DNA from: Candidatus Vogelbacteria bacterium
GTDB taxonomy: Bacteria > Patescibacteriota > Minisyncoccia > Phycocordibacterales > UBA12445
NCBI GenBank assembly: GCA_016201465.1
Contig: JACQCV010000021.1
Coordinates: 1-42,487 of the forward strand
Direction: 5' to 3'
Length of the DNA stretch: 42,487 bases
Of the stretch, positions 32,392 through 37,477 are shown in pieces (the stretch's first letter is position 1; the number at the start of each line of letters is the position of its first letter). Position numbers and translations under genes: made by a program. The notes beneath the pieces were generated by a model that was not told where the DNA came from, did not search any database, and saw only the letters and a program-made list of their open reading frames with translations.

Positions 32392-32397
32392 TTGGCT

Positions 32398-33618
32398 GTG
32401 GATAAAAAGCGCAAGCGAAAAAATTATTTTCTTAAAAAACAGCGTGTCTTCGTTGGCATGTCTGGCGGCGTGGATAGTTCTGTTTCAGTTGCACTTTTAA
32501 AAGATCGGGGTTTTGACGTAACTGGGGTTTTTATAAAAACTTGGTCACCAGATTGGTTGCCTTGTACTTGGAGAGAGGAGAGGCGGGATGCGATGAGGGT
32601 TACGGCTAAACTTAAAATTCCACTTATCACTTTGGATTTGGAGAAAGAATATAAAGAGAGGGTGGTGGATTACATGATTACAGAATACCGATCCGGACGA
32701 GTTCCAAATCCAGATGTCATGTGTAACAAAGTTATCAAGTTTGGTGGCTTTTTTGACTACGCAATGAATCATGGCGCGGATTTTGTGGCGACAGGACATT
32801 ACGCCAGAGTCGTTAGGGCTTCTCCTCAGACAAACAATAGTTTGCCGTCTCCTGCGGGCGACAACTATCTGCACTCTCGACCTATCGGCCCCTTCGGAGA
32901 CCAAGCCCGAGCGGTCTGCGAGAGTTTGTCTTCAAAGAACCCTAACTCCTCTTGGCTTTGCACATCTGTTGATCGTGAAAAAGATCAGACATACTTTTTG
33001 TGGACTCTTACACAGAGAGAACTTTCAAGAACACTTTTTCCAATCGGCCACTTACAAAAGTCTGACGTCAGAAAGTTGGCGAGGAAATTTGATTTACCGA
33101 ATGCAGAGAAGAAAGATAGTCAGGGGCTCTGTTTTATGGGAAAGATCGATGTTAAGGAATTCTTGAAACATTATATTAAGGAAAAGACGGGGAGAGTTTT
33201 GAATGAGGATGGTGAAGTTATTGGTGTACATGAAGGCGCGGCATTCTACACTTTAGGCGAGAGACATGGTTTTAATATTATAAATAAGAGTACTAATGAC
33301 TTGCCGCATTATGTTATTCATAAAGACATTAAAAAGAATATTTTAGTTGTGTCGCAAAAAAGGGACGAAGGTGAAATCTTAAAGAAAGAAGTTATGGTCA
33401 AGAATGTTAACTGGAATCAAGGGTTAGAACCAAATCTAAAGAAAAAATTTAAGGCCAGAATTCGCTATAGGCAAGAGTTACAGGACTGCATGATCGGGGG
33501 GATTAAGGGTGGTCAATATAAAATAATTTTCGATAAAGGACAGGTGGCGCCGGCGCCTGGCCAATCGGTTGTTATTTATGAAGACGGTGTCTGTTTGGGT
33601 GGTGGGATTATTGTTTAG
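32398..33618 (+). CDS. mnmA: tRNA-specific 2-thiouridylase
   Basis: VFVGMSGGVDSSVSVALLKDRGFDVTGVFIKTW, NPDVMCNKVIKFG, DFVATGHYARV, KDQTYFLWTL, KKDSQGLCFMGKID, GGIIV. GTG start used instead of TTG 32392. Confidence 0.93.
   Translation: MDKKRKRKNYFLKKQRVFVGMSGGVDSSVSVALLKDRGFDVTGVFIKTWSPDWLPCTWREERRDAMRVTAKLKIPLITLDLEKEYKERVVDYMITEYRSGRVPNPDVMCNKVIKFGGFFDYAMNHGADFVATGHYARVVRASPQTNNSLPSPAGDNYLHSRPIGPFGDQARAVCESLSSKNPNSSWLCTSVDREKDQTYFLWTLTQRELSRTLFPIGHLQKSDVRKLARKFDLPNAEKKDSQGLCFMGKIDVKEFLKHYIKEKTGRVLNEDGEVIGVHEGAAFYTLGERHGFNIINKSTNDLPHYVIHKDIKKNILVVSQKRDEGEILKKEVMVKNVNWNQGLEPNLKKKFKARIRYRQELQDCMIGGIKGGQYKIIFDKGQVAPAPGQSVVIYEDGVCLGGGIIV
32828..32931 (+). repeat. Structured palindromic insert inside mnmA
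   Basis: Outer arms AGACAAA (32828-32834) / TTTGTCT (32925-32931); inner hairpins ATAGTT/AACTAT (32837/32863) and ACTCTCG/CGAGAGT (32873/32919). GC-richer than flanks; encodes extra residues absent from the usual MnmA spacing. Confidence 0.6.
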
Positions 33619-33630
33619 GTGTTGACCATC

Positions 33631-33826
33631 TTTAAATCACGAAATACGTTAAATTTCCAAGTCCTCGGGTCGGAAAACAGAGTTGAAGTCTGAGTCTCAC
33701 CTTGCTCAACCCCAGGGAGGTTTTTAGCGTTCGGCATGGAAGCCTCACTAAAACTCCCGTAAAACTCAAGCAGTTGAGTTTTACCTCAACCAGAAATTGA
33801 AAATTTAACGTATTTCGTGATTTAAA
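33631..33826. repeat. 196-bp intergenic element with perfect 26-bp terminal inverted repeats
   Basis: TTTAAATCACGAAATACGTTAAATTT (33631-33656) and its exact reverse complement (33801-33826); internal hairpin TAAAACTCAA-gcag-TTGAGTTTTA (33760-33783). Confidence 0.9.
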
Positions 33827-33862
33827 CCACTTTCAATCTGATGTGAGTATATACAAATTACT

Positions 33863-33890
33863 TTGGGTTGGAGTACTCATTTGCTATACT
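33863..33890 (+). promoter_or_regulatory. Promoter, predicted leaderless
   Basis: TTGGGT-N16-TATACT, 6 nt to ATG 33897. Confidence 0.6.
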
Positions 33891-33896
33891 AATTTT

Positions 33897-36206
33897 ATGG
33901 AATCACTAAACAGAAGGGCTAGCCGCAAAATTGAACTTGCACCAGATGAAGAGGTTGCTAAACATTCTATTGAACGTCTTGTTGATGAGATAAGCGAGCC
34001 GACTGACATAGCGGATGTGTCTTGTAAAAGAGAAAAGGTGAATCAAGAAGCTTTGGAGAAGGCTGGGGAAATTTTGAAACAGTTGGAGGACGAGGATATT
34101 GACCGCTTGAGTCCGGAGTTGCAGCAAATGCACTTGAAAACGGCCATTGAGGATATGGAACGAGAAATAAAGATCAAATATACTGGTAAGTGGGCGAACC
34201 TAAAGGATTTTTGGTCAGTCGCTTTTCGTAGAGATAAAGAGGAAGCTCTCAGCGATTTGCAGTACGCTAAGGATTCTATTCAAGTTCTGTCTGTCATGAA
34301 CAGGGCGCAAGCAGTATTGCCCGAGGGTGTCGAGGCGCCAGAAGTAACTGCTATTGAAAAGATAAAAAAAGAGGTGGATATTTTAGTAAAGTTGCGAGAG
34401 GAATTGGAGGAAAGAATAGATGGTAAAGTCAAATCGTTCTTTCGCACAAAACGGGAATCCAGTCTCGATTGGTTCTGGAAAAATAGCGCCCACCGTACTC
34501 TTCTCGAGAAGCAGTTACTCGCCACCTCTTCAGATGGAAAAAATTTGTTGAGTATGGAAGACTACTTTGTTTTTTTGGATATTGAACTTGAGGTTGTGCA
34601 GGAGAGAATTGCCACTTTGCATCGCCAGATGGAAGGACACATATCGGGGAAACTCATCGATCAAGACTTTTCCAAAATGTCTCAAGATGAAGTGGCGGGA
34701 ATTATTATAACTGAAAAAGATTTGGATCGAGAAAGAGTTATTGACTATGATTCTAGGGTTACAGGTAAAAATATAGCCTCTATGACCGCGCGGGAGTTAG
34801 AACTTGAAAGAAAATTGTTTGAAGAATCTAAGGAACGATTTTATGAAAAGAAAGTTCTAGAGTTTATAAAAAATAACAAAGAAAGAGTGCTAGAGCTTGC
34901 AGATACGTCGATTTTTTTAGAGGTACAAACACATCTGGCTGAAATCGATGAGAGTGATCCTAAGTTTGAATTTGATAACAAAAGTAGACAAGGTTTAAAC
35001 GAGACGCTGAAGATGCGTGTCATATTTAGCGCCCTTACAAGTTTGGGGGTGCGAAATCCGGTGACAACTCATGTCGGTGATAGTGAAGGCAAAATCATTT
35101 CAGTCCTCGCGGGTGTTCTGGAGTTAAAAATTGACGACGAAAATTTCCAAAATAAAGTTAGCAAAATTACAGAGCGGTGTTTGGGGCCGAAATGGGAGAA
35201 TGGTGAGGTTTTAAAGCTGCGAAATACTCCTGACTCGGACTCCGTTAAGATTTTTTCTGGTGGTGTTATGCAGCGTGTGCAATTTGATATTAACCACAAT
35301 CCTAGGCGATTGCAATATATTATGAATGACGGTATCACCAAAGTAATTGATGGTGTGTTCGATAAAGACTCTTGGTGGCCACATCCGCTGGGAGTTATAA
35401 TTATGGATTCTTACGGAAATTTATTATTGAATGGAAAAGATTTGATTTCTGATAGAGAGTTTTGGAGGAGCAGGATTGACGTGGAGAGTATACCAGCGGG
35501 TATTTTGTGGCATGACTTAAGTGATAATGGAGTTTTTTTGAATGGAAAAAAGGTGGGTGAACTACCAATGAGTGGAAGGGGACAACCACCCCAACATTTT
35601 TCTGGGTTAAGTAAAAATGGCGTAGTGATGCAGCGTCAGCTTGGTGGGGTTGGTGATGAACATAAAAAAGATGCCGGCATATATATTAATGGTGAACAGG
35701 TTTTAAATGATTACGGTTTCGCTTTTAATGTAAAGGCTGTTGTCTCCAAAGACTTTGTTTTTGCATGTTATAAAAAAGTGGACATGCACAGCGACAGTGC
35801 TAAGATATTATTAGATGGTAAATATCCAATTAAGATAATTTCAGATTCGCCAATAGTGGAGTGGTGGGTTCATCCGCGCGGGATCGTAGTGCTCAATAAG
35901 GATAAAGAATTTAGATTTTACAGTTTTGAGAAGGTTGCTCAGGAGGTTAGATTGAAAAATAAGTTTAATGATGTTTTGTCTGAAAAAGGATTCAAGGTGA
36001 TTCCAAATATGGAAGATATTAATGCTAACCGCTATGGAGAGAAGTTGTGCTGGTTTAATGAGAATAATTATGACAAGATTCGCGCTGCGGTGATTAGCGC
36101 AATTTACAATAAGGATGCGGAGGCATTAGATAATTATTTGAGAGAAGAAAAACAAAAGTACATTAGTATTGTTCAAAACGCGTTGGCTGAGTATCATGAT
36201 CATTAA
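33897..36206 (+). CDS. Large protein: coiled-coil N-terminal half plus repeat-rich beta C-terminal half, paralogue group B
   Basis: Intact ORF; repeated GNLLLNGKDLI / GVFLNGKKVGE / GIYINGEQVLN / AKILLDGKYPI units in the C-terminal half. Confidence 0.8.
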   Translation: MESLNRRASRKIELAPDEEVAKHSIERLVDEISEPTDIADVSCKREKVNQEALEKAGEILKQLEDEDIDRLSPELQQMHLKTAIEDMEREIKIKYTGKWANLKDFWSVAFRRDKEEALSDLQYAKDSIQVLSVMNRAQAVLPEGVEAPEVTAIEKIKKEVDILVKLREELEERIDGKVKSFFRTKRESSLDWFWKNSAHRTLLEKQLLATSSDGKNLLSMEDYFVFLDIELEVVQERIATLHRQMEGHISGKLIDQDFSKMSQDEVAGIIITEKDLDRERVIDYDSRVTGKNIASMTARELELERKLFEESKERFYEKKVLEFIKNNKERVLELADTSIFLEVQTHLAEIDESDPKFEFDNKSRQGLNETLKMRVIFSALTSLGVRNPVTTHVGDSEGKIISVLAGVLELKIDDENFQNKVSKITERCLGPKWENGEVLKLRNTPDSDSVKIFSGGVMQRVQFDINHNPRRLQYIMNDGITKVIDGVFDKDSWWPHPLGVIIMDSYGNLLLNGKDLISDREFWRSRIDVESIPAGILWHDLSDNGVFLNGKKVGELPMSGRGQPPQHFSGLSKNGVVMQRQLGGVGDEHKKDAGIYINGEQVLNDYGFAFNVKAVVSKDFVFACYKKVDMHSDSAKILLDGKYPIKIISDSPIVEWWVHPRGIVVLNKDKEFRFYSFEKVAQEVRLKNKFNDVLSEKGFKVIPNMEDINANRYGEKLCWFNENNYDKIRAAVISAIYNKDAEALDNYLREEKQKYISIVQNALAEYHDH

Positions 36207-36220
36207 GTTTAAGGTGGCCA

Positions 36221-37477
36221 ATGAAAAGTGAAAAAATAAGATCACAAAAGAAAGAAGGTCAGGGTCAGGGTAGTATAGAGCAAACTCCGACCACTGCCGC
36301 TATACCAAACATAAATTTGCTGAGCGCTGAAGAGTTAAGTAGATACAAAGTTGAGGATTTAGCTGATGAAACGCGGCAGCTTACTGATTTTTCGCGTGTA
36401 GACGATATGGCGACAAAGGAAGATCTTGTGGCCGAGGCGGCTAAAATTAAAGAAGAGATTGAAAGAATGGATGAGCAGACAATGAGCGTCGACATGCTTC
36501 ACGCGAAACTTCTAGTGACCCTTAAAGACGCTAGAGGAGAGCTCGAGAATCTTCGTGGCCAATCCCGTTTTAAATTTATTTCGAAAACTAAGAAAGATTG
36601 GCGTAAATCAAAAGAAGAAGAGTTGGTTGCTGAGATAGCTGTCAATGAGACCGATCTTAAGGCTCTTGCATTAAAACACAAGCGACCATTACTCGATATT
36701 GAGAACCGTCCGCTTCGGTTTGATATGGAGCTTGAAGAAATTACAACTGAAATTGGTGCTTTAGAGGTGTTGCGAGACGAACTTAAAAAAGACACTAGAC
36801 TTGTGGAGGACGCGCCGAGATTTGTGAAAAAAGGTTTTGAAAAATTCGTGAACTTTTTGAGCAATTTTTTTGGTCAACCTTATGATAAGGTGATGTCACT
36901 TCATCAAATTGAATTGGATCTTATCCGAAAAAGAATAAGAGGGCTTGTTGCAAAACTTAACGCAGGGCACTTGAATAGTGAGGAAAGAACGGATGAGATA
37001 TCGAGTTTGGACGAGGGAGAGATGAGGTATAAAATTCGGGTTTTTGATTCGAATATAAAAAGTTTGCCGAAGCGAGTTGAACAAGAGATTGAAGAGGAGG
37101 CGAAGGATATATATTACAAAGAGCAGTTTGCTGAATTTATCAAAGAGCAAGAGGAAGCGATAAAACATACGGCTGGTAATATTGCCAGATTCATGTATAT
37201 ACCAATTTTTGCAGATCCAACCGATCCTAGTTATAACGACAGGCTTTTCCTCCAAATGGCTACGACTAATATGGAAGGTCTTAAGCATGAAATAAAGTAT
37301 AAAATGAGTGAGTCAATGAGAGGCGCATTTATTTGGAAGAATGAGAATTTTATTGATGAGAGTAACAGACGAGCGTTTAATCGTTTTTTGCGTAGCCAAA
37401 CGGTGATCAATATGGTAAACAGAATTATTGACGAGGTGATACAGAGTAGAGTAATGTATTTGACGAAGGGAAAATAA
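36221..37477 (+). CDS. Coiled-coil protein, paralogue group B
   Basis: Intact ORF; colinear similarity to the N-terminal half of the 33897 product (VEDLADETRQLTDFSRVDD... vs IERLVDEISEPTDIADVSC...). Confidence 0.78.
   Translation: MKSEKIRSQKKEGQGQGSIEQTPTTAAIPNINLLSAEELSRYKVEDLADETRQLTDFSRVDDMATKEDLVAEAAKIKEEIERMDEQTMSVDMLHAKLLVTLKDARGELENLRGQSRFKFISKTKKDWRKSKEEELVAEIAVNETDLKALALKHKRPLLDIENRPLRFDMELEEITTEIGALEVLRDELKKDTRLVEDAPRFVKKGFEKFVNFLSNFFGQPYDKVMSLHQIELDLIRKRIRGLVAKLNAGHLNSEERTDEISSLDEGEMRYKIRVFDSNIKSLPKRVEQEIEEEAKDIYYKEQFAEFIKEQEEAIKHTAGNIARFMYIPIFADPTDPSYNDRLFLQMATTNMEGLKHEIKYKMSESMRGAFIWKNENFIDESNRRAFNRFLRSQTVINMVNRIIDEVIQSRVMYLTKGK

Follow-up and report, generated by a model that had tools for sequence, protein, structure and literature searches.

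A probable decayed MITE-like palindromic element downstream of mnmA in Candidatus Vogelbacteria, with intergenic and in-frame relatives in Paceibacteria

Bacterial MITEs such as ERIC, BOX and QMITE of Coxiella are non-autonomous elements of ~100–200 bp with terminal inverted repeats and target duplications that are mostly located in intergenic regions, features that the family described here shares. REP/BIME elements are short intergenic palindromes present in many copies, and integron attC sites are imperfect palindromes in which the stem sequence varies while small boxes stay fixed. In-frame palindromic elements are, to our knowledge, chiefly known from Rickettsia, and how they move there is unclear. 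The Rickettsia palindromic elements are short palindromic repeats of ~100–150 bp, which occur many times per genome and lie in frame in unrelated genes (PMC10969869, a MITE review). In the present study, we analyzed a window of 42,487 nt from Candidatus Vogelbacteria bacterium (contig JACQCV010000021.1), in which a 196-bp element begins 12 nt downstream of the stop codon of mnmA (tRNA 2-thiouridylase; 32392–33618, + strand). The results suggested that this element very probably belongs to the non-autonomous palindromic mobile DNA elements of the MITE class and is an old copy; the best reading is that of a decayed, MITE-like palindrome whose loop contains a second one.

The first-pass annotation had described a 196-bp element bounded by perfect 26-bp inverted repeats, and its coordinates proved to be exact. 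The left outer arm (33631–33656, + strand) and the right outer arm (33801–33826, − strand) are complementary at 26 of 26 nt and can be lengthened to 35 nt at 91% complementarity, which makes this the longest inverted repeat of the window (spacer up to 250 nt); the longest one in 60 first-order Markov shuffles of the window was 16 bp. Together with C at 33630, the left arm reads CTTTAAATCACGAAATACG, which resembles the ends CTTTGAATTACGAAATRC of the class A relatives described below. The hairpin and the imperfect stem reported inside the element were also located, the former at 33760–33769/33774–33783 (10 bp, or 11 bp counting G33759–C33784) and the latter at 33715–33727/33748–33758. In agreement with the annotated lack of coding capacity, no ORF of at least 60 aa was found inside the element. 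A target-site duplication, likewise reported as not clearly seen, is not visible for this copy; it has been either lost or never existed, and we therefore infer the mobility of the window copy from its relatives.

The 5′ core box GTCCTCGGGTCG (33661–33672, + strand) was invariant except for one column among 41–42 aligned copies, which had been picked by the core pattern itself; the conserved 3′ core box CTCAACCAGA lies at 33785–33794 (+ strand). Between the boxes lies an extra loop segment of ~92 nt (33684–33775, + strand; limits approximate), which the genus's remaining core-family copies (G000:C27 and G001:C16) do not have. Part of it (33706–33777, + strand) matches a separate sequence of the sister species (G001:C16:4275–4366) and contains a GGGAGG..CTCCC stem and the hairpin AAAACTCAA-GCAG-TTGAGTTTT, with paired changes between the two sequences in both stems.

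Further copies, for which the first-pass annotation had proposed a search, were found in the same genome, in the genus and in related Paceibacteria. The family is built on a core GTCCTCGGGTCG...CTCAACCAGAC; an inner stem separates its two boxes, and outer arms that are long and complementary but variable in sequence surround it. The genome of the window (G000) contains four copies, including a shorter second one (C27:5487–5606), in which ACGT is changed to ATAT on both arms relative to the window copy, and a second subfamily with the core GTCCTCGGWTCTCC..CTCGGCCAGAC, detected at G000:C43 and C16 by a covariance-model search of this genome and the genus; further copies are present in G001 of the same genus. 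Altogether, ~100 distinct copies were gathered, nearly all from Paceibacteria (101 rows, one or two of which are possibly partial duplicates). The distribution is patchy, with the core found by pattern search in 11 of the 397 genomes of the order, and the reversed core pattern had no match in these 397 genomes. The highest single-genome count, 34 copies by covariance model, was obtained for G008. When 85,462 species genomes were scanned with the strict core, matches appeared in Nomurabacteria, Campbellbacteria and other Paceibacteria, with no Rickettsia record among the matches listed; the Burkholderiales-labelled contigs among them correspond to G384, which is placed in the window's own order. 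Because the strict core was the search key, the copy lists lean toward it. Core matches in Myxococcus, Thermoanaerobaculia, Omnitrophica and Chloroflexi records, and those at L132 and L135 (six loci in all, four of them in other phyla), were rejected as chance matches with poorly pairing arms, and the family had no match in the viral contigs, phages and plasmids searched. The 59%-complete genome G254 carries 19 copies as against none in its sampled genus mates, an observation that could reflect transfer or contamination.

Class A relatives are intergenic, with CTTTGAATTACGAAA repeats at their bounds, 7-bp target duplications outside and arms resembling those of the window copy. Direct repeats of at least 7 bp were found at the ends of 46 of the 103 CTTTGAATTACGAAA-bounded elements, compared with ~3% for mismatched flanks, and their modal length is 7 bp, immediately outside CTTTGAATTAC. 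In a Campbellbacteria genome, one element interrupts another member and is flanked on each side by TATAAGA, a perfect duplication, and uninterrupted members provide many empty sites for it; an empty site for L134:6863 is present in G008. The family is short and non-coding, carries terminal inverted repeats, occurs in multiple dispersed copies and shows a 7-bp target duplication at the family level, in class A. The first-pass annotation had offered a MITE-like element or a structured ncRNA, and the former part is supported by these duplications, by the copies elsewhere in the genome and genus, and by arms that change together.

A cut-and-paste transposase of the DDE type would act in trans on class A copies, recognizing their ends as double-stranded DNA, and arm complementarity would be preserved because transposition uses both ends and one arm is copied from the other, not because of an RNA function. 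The loop palindrome of the window copy resembles class A nesting and may, by analogy, have arisen in the same way, as shown in one relative. In G008, of which 721 of ~800 kb were read, and in the loci examined in the taxonomic family of G008, these ends did not bound any transposase gene, and no autonomous partner emerged from a search of G008 for terminal repeats that face each other at distances of up to 3.5 kb, from a 15-mer search in that taxonomic family, or from self-BLAST for long repeats. Unlike the described bacterial MITEs, the family has ends common to several families with different interiors, includes an in-frame class, and gave no parent insertion sequence in G008 or the loci examined in its taxonomic family. 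In G008, the CTTTGAATTACGAAA ends bound ~100-bp core elements as well as three or more further families, whose interiors differ. Across L147–L186 of this genome, at least four MITE families with common CTTTGAATTACGAAA ends and different palindromic interiors were observed, and at L162:9776–9968 a 193-bp element of another family encloses a further palindrome (CCCCTCCCCAGTTTTAAG...).

In class B, ~20 copies lie in frame within genes, with the reading frame open through the element. The hosts include genes of essential proteins such as DNA polymerase I (polA), the helicase UvrD (uvrD) and DNA ligase (ligA), together with uvrC, recJ, leuS, pheT, rpe, genes for a CCA-enzyme-like HD protein and an FAD-linked oxidase, and others, named by sequence resemblance and additionally by solved homologues for UvrD, LigA, cysteine desulfurase, PolI and LeuRS. 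Alignments to solved PcrA, LigA, cysteine desulfurase and PolI stop at the element and resume beyond it. The in-frame copies are sense in 20 of 22 cases, or ~12 genes sense versus one or two antisense, where the antisense L036 may fall in the gap separating two glycosyltransferase genes instead of within either, and L007, scripted as coding but located upstream of its gene, was left out. The 20 sense copies are read in three frames (13, 5 and 2), and the conservation of the core boxes in several reading frames implies a nucleotide-level role. In polA of related genomes, the element is sense, antisense or absent, and L111, an antisense copy, has its arms inverted along with the core, so both inversion and independent insertion are possible. 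Other inserts, which fold strongly (dG −44 to −65 kcal/mol) and have no core, occur in the same polA loop (L250, L252 and L254), so that this loop looks like a shared landing site. At L030, the leucyl-tRNA synthetase carries ~150 extra residues resembling a NUDIX domain by motif.

Gene-inserted copies would survive only where the frame is kept open and the loop is tolerant, as in Rickettsia palindromic elements, and class B relatives would by analogy work like these. The likeness, drawn from description, concerns the in-frame insertion of class B in protein-coding genes, while the window copy is intergenic. The present family differs in belonging to another phylum, in a conserved nucleotide core that is read in more than one frame, and in the existence of a sister class that nests in its own kind and has terminal repeats and 7-bp target duplications. 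The Candidate Phyla Radiation has a comparable in-frame form alongside a class with target duplications and empty sites, through which movement can be traced. No description of such elements in Patescibacteria/CPR was found in titles and abstracts from open-literature searches, most subscription papers being outside their scope; the family appears to be undescribed in the sense that it was not found in the literature searched. It is worth bearing in mind that extra segments in PolA, UvrD, LigA, UvrC or aminoacyl-tRNA synthetases of Patescibacteria are not necessarily functional domains and can represent selfish DNA. The sense bias of the in-frame copies is not predicted by a model of a pure DNA-level parasite. 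There is some chance, though a minor one, that the core is a compact recognition module and that one family serves both as an intergenic cut-and-paste MITE and, in essential proteins, as a peptide insert that is in frame and biased in orientation, with other palindromes entered at their loops; such a mobile element would be nested and palindrome-seeking and would have a function at the nucleotide level within coding sequence.

Variable stems with fixed asymmetric internal boxes, and class B copies that by eye lack a clear target duplication, would also fit a single-strand hairpin element moved by an HUH/Y1 transposase or an integron-like recombinase, with the core boxes as the asymmetric recognition site. 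We consider this unlikely, since class A has 7-bp duplications and DDE-like terminal repeats, and neither a GTAG foot nor a GTTRRRY box was seen in the aligned copies. The family shares variable stems and small fixed boxes with attC sites, but its boxes lie between two stems, GTTRRRY/RYYYAAC was not seen by eye on the alignments, and the class A duplications set it apart. With REP/BIME elements it shares short intergenic palindromes in many copies, whereas its arms are much longer and it has target duplications.

Covariation among homologues, which the first-pass annotation had suggested examining, was strong in the inner stem. In this stem, 96.9% of cells are paired, the covariation score is 0.471 versus 0.092 for shuffled and 0.10–0.14 for slid alignments, and both sides are changed in 90 cells versus 26 after shuffling. 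The outer arms vary from copy to copy yet remain complementary, and the element, when tested in this respect, is neither single-copy nor composed of freely diverging arms. A family of structured RNAs, non-coding or cis-regulatory, whose stems drift freely while the core boxes bind a protein or ligand, would account for a conserved core amid covarying stems, for the sense bias and for the strong fold, and is nonetheless decidedly improbable. Arms kept paired by RNA folding would be expected to show an excess of G-U (G-T in the DNA) over A-C on the transcribed strand, but in the outer arms the two types are equally common (143 G-T and 159 A-C); we read this as a DNA-level constraint, with caution, as the copies are related and non-independent and the class A inner stems alone show a G-T excess (40 versus 17 A-C). 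The fold of the window element is strong relative to shuffles on both strands (z −8.0 and −8.9, one per strand), as would be the case for any long palindrome. No match to any curated Rfam family was obtained, and the sole match at a lax threshold was a chance snoRNA outside the element. The promoter TTGACC/TACGTT proposed earlier was not called by the promoter scan, which found one promoter-like site at the window element versus 1.1 expected by chance. Many copies per genome at unrelated loci, target duplications, and antisense copies at the same polA site also argue against an RNA family, and the ncRNA half of the earlier proposal was not supported.

Removal of class B copies by mRNA splicing or ribosome bypass instead of their translation would suit the sense bias and the conserved core, but it is very unlikely, as it would not need the stop-free, frame-keeping sequence of the in-frame copies (an open frame was a selection criterion, so this holds partly by construction), and in the cases tested, the element is the only point at which the alignment to solved homologues is interrupted. 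Equally remote is a non-mobile bidirectional transcription terminator of mnmA, which is suggested by the position just past the stop codon and by two weak terminator-like sites. The multi-copy family contradicts it as a complete explanation, and members inside genes and the mnmA loci of relatives also speak against it; termination of mnmA may be a side effect of the MITE-like element.

In the comparison of loci downstream of mnmA, proposed in the first-pass annotation, neither G001 nor G003 had an element of this kind after mnmA. In G001, alaS lies directly after mnmA, and a clean empty site for the window copy is therefore lacking. Two large ORFs in the window at 33843–37477, between the element and alaS, are absent from G001. 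An imperfect second palindrome (32806–32952) lies in frame within mnmA, in a segment whose length varies among relatives; it was rejected as a family member, being single-copy in its own genome, absent from four relatives and without a match to the core model. In G354 (L200), a MITE of another family also adjoins the 3′ end of mnmA.
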